DNA of 6,490 nucleotides, from the NCBI GenBank assembly GCA_005879255.1, contig VBKY01000471.1, positions 1 to 6,490 on the forward strand, written 5' to 3'. This DNA comes from Deltaproteobacteria bacterium (GTDB taxonomy: Bacteria; Desulfobacterota_B; Binatia; UBA9968). The translations under genes were made by a program, and so were the position numbers. Of this stretch, positions 1 to 6,490 are shown piece after piece. The notes beneath the pieces were generated by a model. It did not search any database and had not been told where the DNA came from. It worked only from the letters and a program-made list of their open reading frames with translations. Position 1 is the stretch's first letter. Each line of letters opens with the position of its first letter.

Positions 1-274
1 CCCAGATAGTCTCAGGTAATGGAAAGTCATCTTGTTTCCGAACACGCTGGTCGGAAGCAGACCACATAAATGGAAAGTAGACGGAGTGGTCACCGACATG
101 CTTCCCGCTGTATAGGCTAAAGTAGGTCCCCCCTTCAAAAGTCGCTGCGGGTGTTTCGAGGTTGTACCAATGGCCACGTGCAAGGAGACTGGAAATTTTG
201 CGAAGGCGTCCTTGTTCCTGAAGCTGATGAAAAACTGGCAAGTTCACAGCGTCGAATTGTAAGATGACAATCAT
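1..274 (-). CDS. Alkaline-phosphatase-superfamily (type I phosphodiesterase/pyrophosphatase-like) hydrolase, N-terminal part
   Basis: An open frame runs from ATG at 274 to the window edge, 91 codons with no stop; the C-terminus lies outside. The protein begins MIVILQFDAV, a beta strand followed by an aspartate (residue 8), as in the first metal-binding strand of this superfamily. Residues 41-70 carry TPAATFEGGTYFSLYSG and then VGDHSVYFPF, resembling the segment of type I phosphodiesterases that holds the nucleophilic threonine, a (T/S)G turn and a following histidine. T45 is my best guess for the nucleophile, with T50 as the alternative. There is no signal peptide, so a cytoplasmic site is likely. 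It starts 15 bases after the oxidoreductase stop, which suggests co-transcription. By family it would hydrolyse a phosphoester or phosphodiester; the substrate is unknown. I am fairly sure of the superfamily and unsure of the reaction. Confidence 0.75.
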   Translation of the reverse strand, partial: MIVILQFDAVNLPVFHQLQEQGRLRKISSLLARGHWYNLETPAATFEGGTYFSLYSGKHVGDHSVYFPFMWSASDQRVRKQDDFPLPETIW

Positions 275-285
275 GAATCCGGTAA

Positions 286-291
286 CCACCT
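286..291 (-). promoter_or_regulatory. Possible Shine-Dalgarno for the phosphatase-like gene
   Basis: AGGTGG on the minus strand overlaps the TAG stop of the upstream oxidoreductase and ends 11 bases before the ATG at 274. The spacing is slightly long, but it is the best ribosome-binding match there and supports translation of the downstream gene from the same transcript. Confidence 0.4.
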
Positions 292-1213
292 ATGCTTTGG
301 TTGAACTCACTGAGCGCGAAACTCCGCCCATCGCTCCTGAATGCCGAACGGCCTCAATTGTTGACATTACAGCTAATCCATCAGCGGTCGTGGCCAGAGG
401 CGACCCGTCTAACCTCCCGCGTACGGCACGGCCAAAGGCCTCAAGCTGGGCAACCATTGGCCTCACAAGGGGATTCTCTCGATTCGGTTGGAATCTGGCT
501 ACTATTCCTGGAAGAAGGCCGCCGCATTTATAGAAACCGGTCATACGTCCGCGAGCGCATTTCACCTCAAAGCGTTCACGGTAGGGGGTGTTGTTCGAGC
601 ACGAAATCGTGGCGTTTCCCCGCTCTAATCCTATTTCAAATTCAGCGCGACGCTCTTGCAGTGAAAGAGCGCGCGCCCATAGGATTTCGCTGCCCGTGAG
701 CCAGCGGGCGAGATCAATGAGGTGCGGCCCCAGGTCAAGAAGCGCATCATCCTGCATATCAAAAGGCTTCCAGGCAGCTTTTCGGTAATGTAGCTCCAGC
801 CGCAAGTGAATGTCGCCATCACGAGGTACCTTTTCCTTGAGTTTTCTGATACCAGGCTCAAACCGGCGATTGAACGCGATCCACGGGGAGGGATCCAGAG
901 CATGAACAGCACTCGCTTCTCCGACATTCAGGCCGGGGGGTTTTTCCACGAGGGCTGGCAAGCCTGCTTCAGCAGCACAGCGGGCATCTGCCACATGAAA
1001 CCGAGTAGGAGTCGAAATAATCAGTGCGTCAATGCGACCTGCATTGATTAACGCGTGAATGCTTTCATGCGCCGGCACTTCGGGTGCGACTTCCTTGCAG
1101 CGCGTTTGATTAATGTCTACAACACCCGCGAGCTTCACCCCCATCGCCTGTCGAAATGCCGGCAAATATCCAAACTCCGCCACACGACCGCAACCCACAA
1201 GTCCAATTCGCAT
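290..1213 (-). CDS. Gfo/Idh/MocA family NAD(P)-dependent oxidoreductase
   Basis: The protein has 307 residues from ATG at 1213. The N-terminus MRIGLVGCGRVAEFGY is a Rossmann dinucleotide-binding loop (GxGxxA, residues 7-12), with D33 at the end of strand 2 placed to bind the adenosine ribose. ISTPTRFH lies at 66-73, and the family's EKP motif, which carries the conserved catalytic-site lysine, is at 90-92. FNRRF (114-118) and DLGPHLIDLARWL (160-172) match the substrate-side motifs. The family oxidises or reduces sugars, often nucleotide sugars, and among GT genes a sugar-precursor role is the natural inference; the exact substrate cannot be read. The frame is also open upstream. An in-frame ATG at 1255 with a close AGGA is an alternative start, but starting at 1213 puts the GxGxxA loop at the usual distance from the N-terminus. 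The gene is intact and ends in TAG. It follows GT4-C by 124 bases. Confidence 0.9.
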   Translation of the reverse strand: MRIGLVGCGRVAEFGYLPAFRQAMGVKLAGVVDINQTRCKEVAPEVPAHESIHALINAGRIDALIISTPTRFHVADARCAAEAGLPALVEKPPGLNVGEASAVHALDPSPWIAFNRRFEPGIRKLKEKVPRDGDIHLRLELHYRKAAWKPFDMQDDALLDLGPHLIDLARWLTGSEILWARALSLQERRAEFEIGLERGNATISCSNNTPYRERFEVKCARGRMTGFYKCGGLLPGIVARFQPNRENPLVRPMVAQLEAFGRAVRGRLDGSPLATTADGLAVMSTIEAVRHSGAMGGVSRSVSSTKA

Positions 1214-1337
1214 GGGATCTTTATGATCCGACTTCGTTAGCGGAGCGATCTGCATGAGTCCTGATAGCTGAATCTGTCCTACCGGCGAACTGTCTCTAGA
1301 GCGCTCGATCTGTGACGTGCTTGCCCACCTTTCCTGA

Positions 1338-2579
1338 CTAAGCCTCCTGAAGATTCGCCGCGACGCGTTTATCGGCTCTCGCCGCCGCAAGCTGTTCGAC
1401 AAGTTCTAAGTAGCGTTTAATATGAACCTCTGCGCACCATTTTCGCTGCAGTGCTACGTACCCGCGTCGTCCTATCTTCGCCCGCAAATTCGCATCGCCC
1501 ATTAACTGATCCATGGCGTTCACAAGTTCTTTCTCTGTGTCGAATACGAACCCGGCACCGCTTTCTTCAATGATCTTTGGCATCCCTCCCCTATTTCTCA
1601 CGATCACGGGAGTCTCCTGTGCGAATGCTTCAAGGATGACGATTCCAAACACTTCGAACCATAGAGAGGGAACGATGGTTGCCACGGCCTGCTGGTAAAG
1701 GATGCGGAGTTGCTCACCTGCTTGGTACCCTAGGAACTTGATGTTTGGAGATCCCTGAGCCATTCGGCGAAGGACCGGCTCGTAATCGCCCAACCCAACA
1801 ATCCATAGTTGGGCTTTTTCGTAACGGCGAAAAATCGGAAGAAGCTCCTGAAGCCCCTTAGATTTGACCAACCGCCCGACGAAAAGAAAATAAGGAGTCT
1901 CGGCAATAGATTGGCGAGGCGGAATATCGTGCCGCTCCCAGCGGGAGGTGAAGTACGGCAGTTCTACTACAGGAATTTTGAGACCCGTCTCGAGGTGCTT
2001 GTTCATTGTGAACTCACTAGGAGCAAGGAACAGATCAACTTGCTTCACAGCCTGCTGGATCATTTTCGTGTACCGCCAGAGCTGCGGGGGACGCGCATGA
2101 GCGAGCGTGCACGACAAGCACTGTTTGTGAATGCAAACTTCGTGATTAAATTTGAACAGCAAATGGGTTGGACAGATCAGCCAGTACTCATGGAGAGTAT
2201 AGAGTTTGACTGCCTGACCATAATAGAGAATCTTGGGCCCGCCAATCAATGAGATATTGTGGTAATGGATGACATCAAAAGGTTTCTCAAGAATTTTCTT
2301 GATTTTGAAAGACTTTAACATCGGCCGGCCTGTCTGATGAGTTGCGAGCGGAGACAAAACACCGAACCGACTATTCAGTGCGTGGACCGTTACATTAGGA
2401 TGATTGTGGTCGGTTATTGACGATGTTCGGCGAGCTAAGACGTTATAAGTATCTCGGCAATGAACAACCTATACCTGGTGTCCACGTTTTGCTAGCTCAT
2501 TGGACAGTTGCTGCACATAGACACCGTCTCCGCCAAATGCATACGGCGGGTAGAAGGTGGTGATCATGCAAAAACGCAT
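1338..2579 (-). pseudogene. GT4-C: family 4 glycosyltransferase interrupted by an in-frame TAG
   Basis: One frame of 414 codons runs from ATG at 2579 to TAG at 1340-1338. It is broken only by TAG at codon 37 (2471-2469). The N-terminus MRFCMITTFYPPYAFGGDG is the glycine-rich acceptor-side loop of GT-B enzymes. After the stop the frame continues with VVHCRDTY, NVTVH, DVIHYHN (102-108), HEYW (130-133), a cysteine cluster around 136-157, FVGRLVKSKGL (233-243) and the EX7E donor-site motif EVFGIVILE (E309, E317). Length and motif order are normal for GT4, so without the TAG it would be a complete enzyme moving a sugar from a nucleotide sugar to an acceptor at the membrane or in the cytoplasm. Sister copy GT4-B has aspartate at the TAG position; a single GAG-to-TAG change would explain it. 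TTG at 2357 could start a 339-residue product, but that would lack the N-terminal loop. It starts 27 bases after the methyltransferase stop, in the same frame. Confidence 0.85.
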
Positions 2580-2606
2580 ACAGGGAATGCTCGTGGAAGA
2601 TGCCGA

Positions 2607-3632
2607 TTATTTTTTAATGCAGATGACGTGGAACAATGGGCCGAAAAAATAGACCAGCCATTTGAGCAGCAGGCGCTCCTTCAGCGCGTGATAAATCGGC
2701 ACAGCGCAGCGCGCCCACGCCGGCAGACGCGCCGTGTGTTCAGAAGGTAAAGTGGGAGCTACAATGTGCCACCGATCGAACGGTGTTTGCGCAACGAGTC
2801 GGCGCATTTCGAACCAATTGAGCAGGCTGATATTTTGATACGGAACTTTCCGCACGAGCCGTACATAAAGAGTACGCCAAGCTTTCGGCAAAAAACCTAC
2901 CCCCCAAAGATTGACGTGTGGCTCCGGTGTTAGGCTCCAGCGATTCGGCGTCGCCAGAAACAGTGCGCCACCTGGGACCAACACGCGATGTGTTTCACGC
3001 ATAACTTCCAGCTGTTCGTGAACGTGCTCAATGACATCGCTGCCGACGACAATATGAAATGAATCGTTAACAAAAGGAAGAAACTCGGCGGATGCACAGA
3101 TCACCAGCGCTTCCCGACCGGTTTCCTCAAGCTGTTTCTTGGCCAATACCGAGCGGGGCATGCTGATGTCCAACCCAACGACAGAGCGAAAGACCTGAGC
3201 CGCTGCGACAAGGAACTCGCCGGTCCCACAGCCTATTTCGAGGAATTGCCCTTGGCGGGGTAAAGCTGTGATTTGTTCAAGTTCAGCCAGGGAACTTTGT
3301 GCACGAAGGACAGCGCTCAGCATATGAACTCGGCGCTTTGCCACAACATCAGGTGGCACAGCAGGCCTTAGGCTTGCATACAAATCGACGAGTTCCGCAA
3401 ACGACGCGTTAGAATATTCAGCCTCAAGACGTTCGGTCCAAGCATGTTCCATCTCTGACTCGAACAACCCGTCCGGCCATACACGGAAGTCTGGAATCCC
3501 CAGCGTCACGCGACAGACCCGCTGATCGCGCACACAGAAATAACCTCTCGATCCATGCTGCAATCGACCCTTACAGATCGGACAAGCAAACTCTATTACG
3601 ATTGGCTCAGACAATTCGACATCTGGTTCCAT
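2607..3632 (-). CDS. Class I SAM-dependent methyltransferase with N-terminal Trm112-like zinc ribbon
   Basis: This is an intact 341-residue protein. Residues 15-49 form a small zinc-ribbon-like segment: CPIC at 17-20, further cysteines at 33 and 40, and the closing GIPDF at 45-49, as in Trm112/YbaR-type modules fused to methyltransferases. The catalytic domain follows. FLEIGCGTGEF (130-140) is SAM motif I, VVGLDIS (151-157) supplies the acidic residue D155 for the SAM ribose, ASAEFLPF (180-187) is the adenine-side motif, and DVIEHV (199-204) is the typical post-II motif. The C-terminus is hydrophobic (LLKWLVYFFGPLF), perhaps for membrane or lipid contact. Enzymes of this type methylate sugars, lipids or secondary metabolites; the acceptor here is unknown. 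ATG at 3632 directly abuts the TAG of the preceding gene tail, so translational coupling to a gene now mostly lost is likely. It reads cleanly between two damaged GT genes. Confidence 0.9.
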   Translation of the reverse strand: MEPDVELSEPIVIEFACPICKGRLQHGSRGYFCVRDQRVCRVTLGIPDFRVWPDGLFESEMEHAWTERLEAEYSNASFAELVDLYASLRPAVPPDVVAKRRVHMLSAVLRAQSSLAELEQITALPRQGQFLEIGCGTGEFLVAAAQVFRSVVGLDISMPRSVLAKKQLEETGREALVICASAEFLPFVNDSFHIVVGSDVIEHVHEQLEVMRETHRVLVPGGALFLATPNRWSLTPEPHVNLWGVGFLPKAWRTLYVRLVRKVPYQNISLLNWFEMRRLVAQTPFDRWHIVAPTLPSEHTARLPAWARCAVPIYHALKERLLLKWLVYFFGPLFHVICIKK

Positions 3633-3710
3633 CTATTGGCTCGGTTTTGCAGCTCTGATTCCAATCAAGACCTCGTAATCCGGATCTAAATCATCGCGCT
3701 CGTCTTAATC
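3633..3710 (-). pseudogene. Orphan C-terminal tail of a lost gene, abutting the methyltransferase
   Basis: In a frame different from GT4-B, the bases before the methyltransferase read DERDDLDPDYEVLIGIRAAK, then PSQ and TAG at 3635-3633, immediately followed by ATG. The segment is preceded in frame by MD and a TAA at 3707-3705. The acidic run and the YEVLIGIRA strand look like the genuine end of a coding sequence, possibly a methyltransferase, which often ends in such a strand; that assignment is a weak impression. It overlaps the last codons of the GT4-B frame. I infer it is the surviving 3' end of a gene whose body was removed by the deletion that truncated GT4-B. Confidence 0.35.
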
Positions 3711-3913
3711 CATTTCCTCGGGTGATCCTCATTAGTTTTCATGGGCGAACGTCTGGCCAAACGATAGGCGTCAATACAGTGGATCACGTCGACCGTATGT
3801 CCGCGACGCGCCAGGGCGTTAGACAAACGCTGTACAAAGATCCCGTCCCCGCCGAGGTTATAAGGCGGATAGAAGGTCGTAATCATGCAAAAGCGAAGCG
3901 GCCTGTCCGTCAT
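3686..3913 (-). pseudogene. GT4-B: truncated N-terminus of a family 4 glycosyltransferase
   Basis: ATG at 3913 opens a 75-codon frame ending in TAG at 3688-3686. Its first 57 or so residues are a near twin of GT4-A and GT4-C: MTDRPLRFCMITTFYPPYN, GGDGIFVQRLSNALARRGH, VDVIHCIDAY and EDHP. After EDHP the homologues continue with NVTVH; here the frame instead gives RKWIKTSAMI and stops. Everything that makes a GT4 active, the rest of the acceptor domain and the whole nucleotide-sugar domain with EX7E, is missing. This is therefore a remnant, not a short gene. Upstream TTG/GTG-type starts exist in the frame, but homology begins at MTDRPL. It is the best in-window reference for what GT4-A lost and for the residue at the GT4-C TAG. 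Confidence 0.8.
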
Positions 3914-4016
3914 ACTGTGCTGTGCTCTGATACTGCAGGCGGTTGAACGAACATTGTTGGTCAGAGTCTCGCTCGAAGAGAAGCTCACGAAGCGATGTTA
4001 GAGTATTTCGCTATTG

Positions 4017-4735
4017 TTAGACTGAGGGTGGCGAGCGTAGATATAGGGGCTTTAGTTTGCCTGAGGCGCTCCAGATGGGCTCCGCCCGGTCGGCCGAAAC
4101 GTCGCCCCGCCTAAGATACTAACGATTGTCTCGATCACCTCATTTTCACAGCAAGCTTGATGTTAGGGCTGACCCGCACGGTTAGGCGTGACAACCCTTG
4201 GTCATCTTCCTCTTCGCACAGTTGGTAATCCAACGGACTGCCCCTGAACCGCGCGGGTAACGTCTCTTCCAGGATGGGAAGCATTTCGTCCCCGATCAGA
4301 GTGGCTCCTTCGCTGGTCAACTTGCCGTAGCTACCGATATGACTCAAATGCTCCGTGTAACCCAACTTTCCAGCGGGCAGTCGCAAGACCGCTTTTCGAT
4401 GACGCCGTAGTCGCCGCTTTCGACATTGAGCATGACTTTGCGGGCGGCCAGAGACAAAGTCATGAAATAGAAGGCTTTAAGATTAGTCTCCATTTCGGCT
4501 CTCTGAAGCGGGCACGGAAGGAGAACAAAGCTGTCTCTAAAAGGTGCAGCCTGTCACTGTTGAAAGGTTGGGCGCATCCCGCGGCGATCGGCCCGGCTTC
4601 GGCAAAAGCATAAGTCGGAACGTAGCGCGCGCCCGTCTCAGCTATCAGTCTGATCTTAAGAGGAGTAATTCTCTCCCCTGCGCCGCAGAAAATAATCCCT
4701 GTAAGATCTAATCCCTGCTCGCGGGCACTCTCAGC
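4017..4735 (-). pseudogene. 3' half of a phenylacetate-CoA-ligase/F390-synthetase-like adenylating enzyme, multiply frameshifted
   Basis: Homology to the PaaK-like branch of the ANL superfamily can be followed only by changing frame. The first frame reads AREQGLDLTGIIFCGAGE, then ITPLKIRLIAETGARYVP and YAFAEAGPIAAGCAQP, the core containing the adenylation Y-x-x-x-E-type motif; it runs to TGA at 4462-4460. The second reads ETNLKAFYF and KVMLNVESGDYGVIEKR, then CDCPL, and stops at 4346-4344. The third reads GKLGYTEHLSHIGSYGKLTS and later LDYQLCEEEDDQGL, and stops at 4137-4135. The fourth reads NEVIETIVSILGG. The fifth reads GDVSADRAEPIWSASGKLK and ends in TAA at 4019-4017. Switches fall near 4490-4530, 4375-4385, 4135-4150 and about 4100. 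The N-terminal half is absent, replaced by a GT N-terminus. The intact family activates carboxylic acids as acyl-adenylates or CoA thioesters; this copy cannot be functional as written. Confidence 0.72.
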
Positions 4736-4864
4736 GCCCGGTCAGCACTGTAGGCTCCCAACCATGGGCGGCAGGTATCGGCACCACCTGCCGGCGCGGA
4801 CACTCCAGCCAATGGGGCCGGAAGGTGGAAAGGGATTGGCGATGACCAGCAGCTTGTTCGCCAT
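4731..4864 (-). pseudogene. N-terminal fragment of a second type of family 4 glycosyltransferase (NPFPP type)
   Basis: ATG at 4864 begins MANKLLVIANPFPPSGPIG, then VRAGRWCRYLPP, and reaches TGA at 4744-4742. Shifting one base within CTGCCGCCCATGG restores AHGWEPTVLTGR, ending at TGA 4733-4731. Together this is the well-known GT4 opening: a hydrophobic strand, NPFPP-x-G loop, RYLP helix and GWEPTVLT strand. It differs from the MITTFYPPYN group in this window. About 43 residues survive, with one frame change, before the sequence becomes the adenylating-enzyme remnant; in the ATG frame the two run on across one TGA. I see no clear ribosome-binding site. A deletion between two adjacent co-oriented genes would produce exactly this join. 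Confidence 0.65.
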
Positions 4865-4907
4865 AGCTGAGGATGATCTAATTTCGCGAGTATCCACCCG
4901 GTAAGCT

Positions 4908-4969
4908 GGCTAAGTTGCCCCCGAGCATCCCAAAGAAGAGCAATACAAGACACTAAACGGCTAAGTTGC
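4908..4969. repeat. 11-base direct repeat, 51-base period
   Basis: GGCTAAGTTGC occurs at 4908-4918 and again at 4959-4969 on the plus strand. The second copy covers the inferred natural stop of GT4-A; the first lies in the short spacer before the NPFPP-type GT fragment. Such a pair could be the trace of a local duplication, but it is short enough to be chance. Confidence 0.3.
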
Positions 4970-6124
4970 TTTCTGTGCGATCACCGAGCGGCCGCGAGAC
5001 GCCGCGATCTCATCGTTTGTTCGAGAGCCTTGTGACCGGCCGCGCCCAAGCGATCACGGTAGCAGGAATCGTTTAGTAACTGGTCCATGGCCGTGAGCAA
5101 TTCTTGATCGGTGTCATACTCTAATCCGCCGCCGCTATCTTGAATGATCTCCGGCATTCCGCCGATGTTTCTTACAATAACAGGTGTTTGCTGCACAAAG
5201 GCCTCAAGAATGACTAGAGCAAATATTTCAAAAGAGAGCGACGGCACGACAAGCGCCGTCGCATTCCGGTAAAGTTCCTGCAACTCGTCTTTGGTCCTGT
5301 AGCCAAGGAATCGAACGTTGTCGGTTCCTTTGGCTAACCGCCGTAGTTGGGGCAGGTATCCGCCGTCGCCCGCGATCCACAACTGTGCCTTCTGATACCG
5401 GCGAAAAACTGGGATAAGCGTTTGCAGTCCTTTAATCTTTTCCAATCGCCCGACAAACAAAAAATAGGGTTTTTGTTCTGGCTCATGTTGAGGTCGTCGG
5501 AGCGGCAACGCAGCCCCATTCCCCGCGCCCGGAATAAAATGAGATATATGTACAATTCGTGCATCCAGTCCCATTCGGTGGTGGATCTCTTTGCTAAAGC
5601 GGCTAGGAGCAATAAATGCGTCAACATGTTGGATTGCGGACTGCATTATGCCCGACTGCCGCCACCACTGGGGCGGACGCTTGTATATAAGTCCGCAGGT
5701 GAAGCAATCCCGCTGTGTGCAGGCGGCGCGATTGAATCTAAAGAGCACATGAGTCGGACAAACCAACCAGTACTCATGCATCGTGTAGAGCTTAATACCG
5801 GTGCCGTATTCCAGGATCTTTGGTCCACCGACCAGAGAAATATTATGATAGTGGATGACGTCAAAACCTTTGTCTAAAATATCGCGGAGACGATGCGACT
5901 TGAAATAAGGCGAACCCGTCTGTTGTGTGGCTAATGGAGAAAGATAACCGAATGGGCTTTTAAGCCCGTGGACCGTTACGTTCGGATGATCCTCATACGA
6001 CTTTGCTGGCTCATCCACGGCGCGCCAATTCGTTACACAACCGCTGCACATAGATTCCATCCCCGCCAAAATTGTAGGGCGGATAGAAGGTCGTGATCAT
6101 GCAGAAGCGTAGCGGCCTATCCAT
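4961..6124 (-). pseudogene. GT4-A: family 4 glycosyltransferase with internal deletion, frameshift and damaged 3' end
   Basis: ATG at 6124 opens MDRPLRFCMITTFYPPYNFG, GGDGIYVQRLCNELARRG, and hits TGA at 6013-6011. The next frame then reads DEPAKSYEDHPNVTVHGLK and continues as a good GT4 through DVIHYHNIS, HEYW, a cysteine cluster, FVGRLEKIKGL and EX7E (EIFALVILE). Against GT4-B, about 16-18 residues (the HTVDVIHCIDAY block) are missing between RRG and DEP, and the frame is lost with them. A second break lies near 5014. The frame ends ALEQTMRSRRLAAAR with TGA at 4981, while the neighbouring frame gives DEIAASRGRSVIAQKAT and TAG at 4963-4961, which looks like the natural C-terminus with about 15-20 residues missing before it. 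The closest relative in the window is GT4-C. The first base after EX7E-F is A rather than the usual G codon, giving FAxV for FGxV. Without both repairs no full enzyme can be made. Confidence 0.83.
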
Positions 6125-6319: not shown

Positions 6320-6490
6320 TCATCGACTATGCGGCTGTTTTACCGTAACTGCTCCTGGTTGTACCCCGTCCAGGCAGGCTCTGAGCTTTTCAGCGAGCAC
6401 CTGGACATGAGGTTCTTGCAGCATACTCAAGTGATTTCCGGGAACAACCTTGATCTCGACACCTCCAGCGGCGATTGCTCCCCAGCCTTT
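6320..6490 (-). CDS. C-terminal end of an NRPS/PKS thioesterase domain (5' part outside the window)
   Basis: The first 57 codons read from the window edge encode KGWGAIAAGGVEIKVVPGNH, then LSMLQEPHVQVLAEKLRACL and a short tail ending HSR, TGA at 6322-6320. VPGNHLSML-x-EPHV-x-x-LA is the closing signature of type I thioesterase domains (alpha/beta hydrolase fold). The histidine of PGNH (residue 20 of this fragment) is the catalytic-triad base; the serine and aspartate would lie upstream, outside the window. Such domains sit at the end of multimodular NRPS or PKS proteins and release the product by hydrolysis or cyclisation. A stand-alone type II thioesterase is possible, because only the end is visible. 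The domain reads cleanly with no frame break, unlike the GT genes downstream of it. Confidence 0.88.
   Translation of the reverse strand, partial: KGWGAIAAGGVEIKVVPGNHLSMLQEPHVQVLAEKLRACLDGVQPGAVTVKQPHSR

Follow-up and report, generated by a model that had tools for sequence, protein, structure and literature searches.

Three broken GT4 glycosyltransferase genes in a Binatia contig: probably two decaying glycan cassettes side by side

How do three related glycosyltransferase genes come to stand broken, within 3.6 kb, in a single bacterial genome? The question is raised by 6,490 nucleotides (nt) from a Deltaproteobacteria bacterium (GTDB lineage Bacteria; Desulfobacterota_B; Binatia; UBA9968), positions 1 to 6,490 of contig VBKY01000471.1 in assembly GCA_005879255.1; this whole stretch of DNA is called the window below. 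Three genes of the GT4 family (GT4-A, GT4-B and GT4-C) lie in it, and an initial annotation took them for an amplified family that is losing its members independently. We consider it probable that the window instead holds two glycan-gene cassettes side by side, whose GT4 genes and a ligase-like gene were lost by separate ordinary mutations. The window would then cross a join, with GT4-A, the ligase-like gene and GT4-B on one side and methyltransferase, GT4-C, oxidoreductase and phosphodiesterase on the other.

All recognizable genes lie on the minus strand. Their order is a gene tail (6490-6320), GT4-A, the ligase-like wreck, GT4-B, the methyltransferase, GT4-C, the Gfo/Idh oxidoreductase and a phosphodiesterase-like start, as follows.

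4981..6124, minus strand: GT4-A, a broken glycosyltransferase gene with its head in one frame, its body in another and its tail back in the first (blastx against the full-length relative P0121, Pfam, direct reading)
4035..4729, minus strand: remains of a ligase-like gene, confined to its C-terminal part and spread over three frames (blastx to the 538-amino-acid (aa) protein L027:7064-8680)
3719..3913, minus strand: GT4-B head, about 65 codons, without a body (ends of blastx rows; nearest relative P0128)
3645..3719, minus strand: what may be the end of another methyltransferase gene, adjoining the GT4-B head (weak match; blastx to L031:4934-5950)
2607..3632, minus strand: class I S-adenosylmethionine methyltransferase, open frame, 341 aa (Pfam Methyltransf_11, 6.4e-19)
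1338..2579, minus strand: GT4-C, a full-length glycosyltransferase gene with one nonsense codon at 2471-2469 (direct reading, Pfam, blastx, orthologue P0001)
290..1402, minus strand: Gfo/Idh/MocA oxidoreductase, open frame (Pfam GFO_IDH_MocA, 2.2e-14), the longest frame, with the true start probably inside it
2..289, minus strand: first part of a phosphodiesterase-like gene that runs off the window edge (named via a DNA match to the locus L001)

The evidence for two cassettes comes from a tree of GT4 proteins (49 rows, built by a quick method, with GT4-B left out as too short) and from the genes that surround GT4 in relatives. GT4-C falls in a 22-row clade (support 100) together with all five GT4s labelled as oxidoreductase-linked. 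GT4-A stands outside this clade, in an 11-row group (support 99), and so do the seven GT4s labelled as ligase- or sulfotransferase-linked. Two of the seven fit their label loosely (L006, with a sulfotransferase and no ligase-like gene in the mapped stretch, and L010, with the ligase downstream), and several of these rows have long branches, which drew a warning from the tool.

The neighbourhoods follow the same division. In the locus L033 of a Nitrospirae bacterium, open frames run methyltransferase, GT4, oxidoreductase and then three phosphodiesterases, in the window's order, and the order GT4, oxidoreductase, phosphodiesterase recurs in L001, L002, L003 and L110. The other context of GT4 is a ligase-like gene, one or two other genes and then GT4 (L005, L019, L027 and L109); in L108 an intact ligase-like gene directly precedes GT4 with a gap of 117 nt, and the gap in the window is about 110-120 nt. 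As a side observation, L111:9792-13482 carries methyltransferase, oxidoreductase and phosphodiesterase with no GT4 between the first two, unlike L033 and the window, and the close GT4 of that genome sits on another contig beside a sulfotransferase (L006). The GT4 gene seems to come and go between the methyltransferase and the oxidoreductase.

Each of the two longer genes also has its own full-length orthologue in another assembly, as the initial annotation had suggested looking for: P0001 (409 aa, 94%) is the best match of GT4-C and P0121 (418 aa, 95%) that of GT4-A. Across the two lineages, the identities fall to 56% (A body and P0001) and 55% (C and P0121). For GT4-B, blastx gives P0128 at 80% over 66 residues, P0121 at 76% and P0001 at 63%, which would place it nearer to A's side, and A and B may be an older pair.

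How alike, then, are the three genes themselves? The starts at 6124 (A), 3913 (B) and 2579 (C), spaced by 2211 and 1334 nt, open with RFCMITTFYPPYNFGGDG, RFCMITTFYPPYNLGGDG and RFCMITTFYPPYAFGGDG, respectively; each start is followed by RFCMITTFYPPY, two residues and then GGDG. The positions, the single orientation and the common opening were thus correctly read in the initial annotation. Over 114 nt the heads are a direct repeat in three copies, two of them 63% and 81% identical to the one taken as reference, and Pfam finds Glycos_transf_1 (PF00534) in the A body (2.7e-31, together with Glyco_transf_4) and in the C body (4.7e-32), with no such match in the B head. By the direct repeat and these Pfam matches, the likeness of the three heads is far above chance. 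Describing them as near-identical goes too far: DNA identity is 86/106 for A-B, 69/97 for A-C and 111/180 for B-C (62-81%), the A and C bodies agree at 596/1000 positions (60%), and the 150 nt upstream of each gene show no more likeness to one another (38-52%) than 20 pairs of shuffled sequence do (37-53%). By these comparisons, what A, B and C have in common is a conserved protein start and not a copied block of DNA.

The three genes are broken in different ways. Against the full-length P0121, GT4-A falls apart in blastx: residues 2-36 and 402-418 are matched in frame 3, and residues 44-386 in frame 1. These three pieces bear out the internal deletion and second 3' break first proposed for it. 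We read them as two frame-shifting deletions of about 53 and 43 bp, sizes obtained by codon arithmetic. On the P0121 structure model, the first would remove strand 38-44 and helix 45-52, and it takes H37, V39, V41 and C44, all invariant in an alignment of 29 sequences; the second falls at about residues 387-401, chiefly within the last helix. The two sizes (53 + 43 bp) sum to a multiple of three and the final 17 codons again share the frame of the head, a return that is probably due to chance.

GT4-C carries a single in-frame TAG at 2471-2469 (codon 37) and is otherwise open to 1338, as read directly from the sequence. GT4-B is indeed truncated, at a point later than the earlier estimate of about 57 codons: homology reaches codon 65, and 25 of the 43 GT4 blastx rows end at window position 3719 (two pairs among these rows are the same gene), with 16 ending earlier and two slightly later. 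The sequence after the head matches L031:4934-5950, a protein with Pfam Methyltransf_11, over 25 aa at 56% (blastx, E 0.013), and 3645..3719 thus weakly resembles the tail of another methyltransferase. None of A, B and C keeps a complete N-terminal GT4 domain in the window. On their sequence, the window copies are remnants of the GT4 family and, as read, not working members. It was also noticed, post hoc, that the first lesion lies within the first 66 codons in all three genes (window 2469-6124).

Between GT4-A and GT4-B lies a fourth broken gene (about 4729-4035) that was absent from the earlier annotation. Against the 538-aa protein L027:7064-8680, blastx places it in three frames over residues 279-346, 342-401, 397-472 and 503-525, with similar rows for L108, L005, L019, L109 and L010. 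This wreck and GT4-B look older. The GT4-C nonsense codon and both GT4-A deletions look recent, because the bodies have no other interruption and resemble their full-length relatives at 94-95%.

In the preferred reading, that of two joined cassettes, ordinary mutations that arose separately would have broken the three GT4 genes and the ligase-like gene: a nonsense codon, small deletions, and larger ones that spare just a head or a tail. Open frames remain for the methyltransferase, the oxidoreductase and as much of the phosphodiesterase as the window shows. The cassettes would have come together by transfer or rearrangement and not by copying in place. The sequence supports the initial proposal that related GT4 genes were hit independently, and A and C each have a full-length orthologue.

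Several points weigh against the two-cassette reading. No relative seen has both cassettes side by side, so their joining is something we infer; GT4-B is too short to be placed in the tree; and the lesions rest on one contig. Moreover, with three GT4s from one group packed into 3.6 kb, one may be an old local copy: A and B are 81% alike over 106 nt.

In the first alternative, assembly or consensus error (a chimeric contig or false deletions) has damaged genes that are intact in the real genome. The full-length orthologues at 94-95% in other assemblies speak for it, and the conserved stretches of the GT4 family could mislead an assembler. Base quality in general looks good, however, since nothing interrupts the frame of the methyltransferase or that of the oxidoreductase from end to end and the methyltransferase is 100% identical to P0237, a protein on another Joint Genome Institute (JGI) contig. 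The lesions are also of several kinds, and a ligase-like wreck with several changes of frame looks more like decay. We consider such errors unlikely and the lesions probably real.

A second alternative starts from mosaic patterns in the family. It holds that this GT4 group diversifies by exchange of gene parts between lineages, the two domains moving partly separately, with broken copies as by-products or as a store. We ran a mosaic test on 238 aligned sequences (236 database proteins, GT4-C and the GT4-A body) and 169,369 triplets, with parents taken from the 40 nearest sequences above 60% identity. The best max-chi exceeds 40 in 31 of the 238 sequences, and 500 permutations of each of the 45 strongest never reached the observed value; with shuffled columns, none of the 238 exceeds 40 and one exceeds 30. 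Among 60 proteins from contigs of at least 10 kb, hand-picked from match tables, five exceed 30 and three exceed 40 (none above 30 after shuffling), and three random sets of 60 short-contig proteins gave six, three and one above 40.

The clearest case involves the window itself. GT4-C and P0001 agree in all 102 N-terminal columns compared (stop excluded) and at 97, 95 and 97% in further parts; their agreement drops to 82% in segment 301-350, over which P0001 and P0009 are 100% identical. Residues 283-338 (approximately) of P0001 hold most of its differences from GT4-C and are mostly identical to P0009, a possible gene-conversion tract. P0012 is 99% like P0003 in its first 110 residues and 100% like P0015 in residues 236-300. 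If parts are exchanged in this way, P0001 would be the GT4-C lineage after receipt of a C-domain tract from the L001/P0009 lineage. These patterns suggest recombination across genomes within the GT4 family, and uneven rates or chimeric assembly are possible sources of them too. A strict reciprocal mosaic rule is passed by one of the 238 sequences, and near-identical islands of 70 aa occur in seven of 13,666 diverged pairs and in none of the 800 long-contig pairs. As an account of the window, exchange of this kind seems doubtful to us. Swapping of cassettes by the repeats inside the window, as first proposed, is likewise unlikely, since the DNA in common is at most 114 nt long at 63-81% identity.

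What of the amplification proposed at the outset, in which one GT4 was copied in place, diverged and lost its copies singly? The single orientation, the common conserved start and the 81% likeness of the A and B heads speak for it. Copies made in tandem should be nearest kin with common flanking DNA, and neither was found for A and C: they belong to separate supported groups with different neighbour genes, each is closer to proteins of other assemblies, and their upstream DNA is unrelated. Tree and upstream DNA together led us to reject local amplification for this pair. For A and B it may hold; their upstream DNA is unrelated as well. Copy number in relatives points the same way. At E 1e-60, seven of 97 genomes have a GT4 match, one each; at E 1e-80, 23 of 246 have one (20 single, three with two copies far apart), as do 13 of 193 in a second set, one each. 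These genome sets overlap, and scoring covered only the 7 to 18 top candidates of each genome (7 and 9 for the sets of 246 and 193). Most relatives that carry this GT4 have one copy, and three within 3.6 kb are unusual for the group. We regard amplification in place as very unlikely.

Two single cases touch on broken copies elsewhere. The GT4 of L036:9767-11009 is split over two overlapping frames and is possibly another broken copy. A GT4 relative in G312, considered as a broken copy for its one TAA, was rejected: that TAA is the normal stop codon at the end of an uninterrupted frame.

The last alternative makes the broken copies a silent store from which a full-length GT4 at another site of the genome receives segments, as pilE does from pilS. 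The mosaic signal (31/238 against 0/238) and the identity of P0001 with C over 102 N-terminal columns and with P0009 over 50 columns (301-350) speak for it. Against it, most relatives having the GT4 carry one copy, strain-to-strain mosaics need no silent store, and only 3/60 long-contig proteins exceed 40 with 0/800 islands. We find it scarcely credible. No full-length recipient gene lies within the window, and none of the family's mosaic proteins was linked to a partial copy of the same genome.

The silent pilS cassettes are partial copies that have a conserved start in common with the full-length gene, and the partial copies in the window resemble them in this. They differ from pilE/pilS in that no intact recipient is seen in the window and the heads are only 62-81% alike. 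Another parallel is Neisseria pglP, a glycosyltransferase gene reported to have decayed into pseudogenes independently, with alleles recombining within the gene; the same source mentions gene conversion at pilE from truncated donors (PMC6959607). The Neisseria case concerns a single gene in two species, and the window has three related genes, of two lineages, next to each other in one genome. Our literature search found nothing on this GT4 group, which is no proof of absence in print.

The P0121 model (mean predicted local distance difference test (pLDDT) score 83) has two Rossmann-like domains, that is, a GT-B fold, and its best Foldseek match is BshA (5d01, E 2e-19; template modelling (TM) score 0.66 by query and 0.76 by target). 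In this fold and in its Glycos_transf_1 and Glyco_transf_4 domains, the family resembles GT4/GT-B enzymes such as BshA, PimB' and MshA; the window copies differ from working members in being broken. By fold and domain, the intact relatives are predicted to be sugar-transfer enzymes. NCBIfam gives no model at cut-off among the 25 matches listed for the C body, P0001 and P0121, and therefore no substrate can be named.

The ligase-like gene belongs to a family of about 540 aa (L027:7064-8680, L108:4917-6527, L005:5640-7265) that is conserved beside GT4 and an amine-oxidase-like gene. No Pfam or NCBIfam model matches it (Pfam nothing at 1e-5; for L108 nothing at E 1, and for L019 a chance-level match only). 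Its structure model is of low confidence (mean pLDDT 64); Foldseek returns acyl-CoA ligases and adenylation domains, with no TM score above about 0.38 among the 50 matches listed, and the sole PDB sequence match is a phenylacetate-CoA ligase (E 0.28). These matches point weakly to adenylate-forming enzymes, and the name 'ligase-like' is a lead.

The remaining pieces are less telling. We took 4742-4861 (MANKLLVIANPFPP...) to be similar to a glycosyltransferase start, a likeness without tool support that we do not claim as a further gene: Pfam gave only an unrelated match (E 0.16) for 4861-4742, tblastn of this head found no match in the relatives' loci, and two ligase rows (L109, L010) reach weakly over it. 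The open frame 6320-6490, cut by the window edge, has no Pfam match to confirm the thioesterase-domain tail that we presume it resembles. A Pfam search with the 96 aa of the phosphodiesterase-like start was without a match; window 1-1192 matches the DNA of L001, whose gene there resembles L033:13646-15214 (Pfam Phosphodiest).

What does this locus mean for its bearer? The products presumably make a surface or secreted glycan. The loss of enzymes would be tolerated because that glycan has changed or been lost, and a sugar branch that is dropped or replaced would be one ordinary reason for losing a GT4. As read, the locus most likely does not work as three enzymes. This is ordinary gene loss (pseudogenes) in a known enzyme family, not a new system, and recombination in the GT4 family is a side question to it that merits a test at the DNA level. 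A glycan locus can thus look like an amplified family though it is more likely a join of two decaying cassettes. If the mosaic pattern reflects real recombination, it would mean domain exchange in GT-B enzymes, a testable route by which bacteria may change their sugars.

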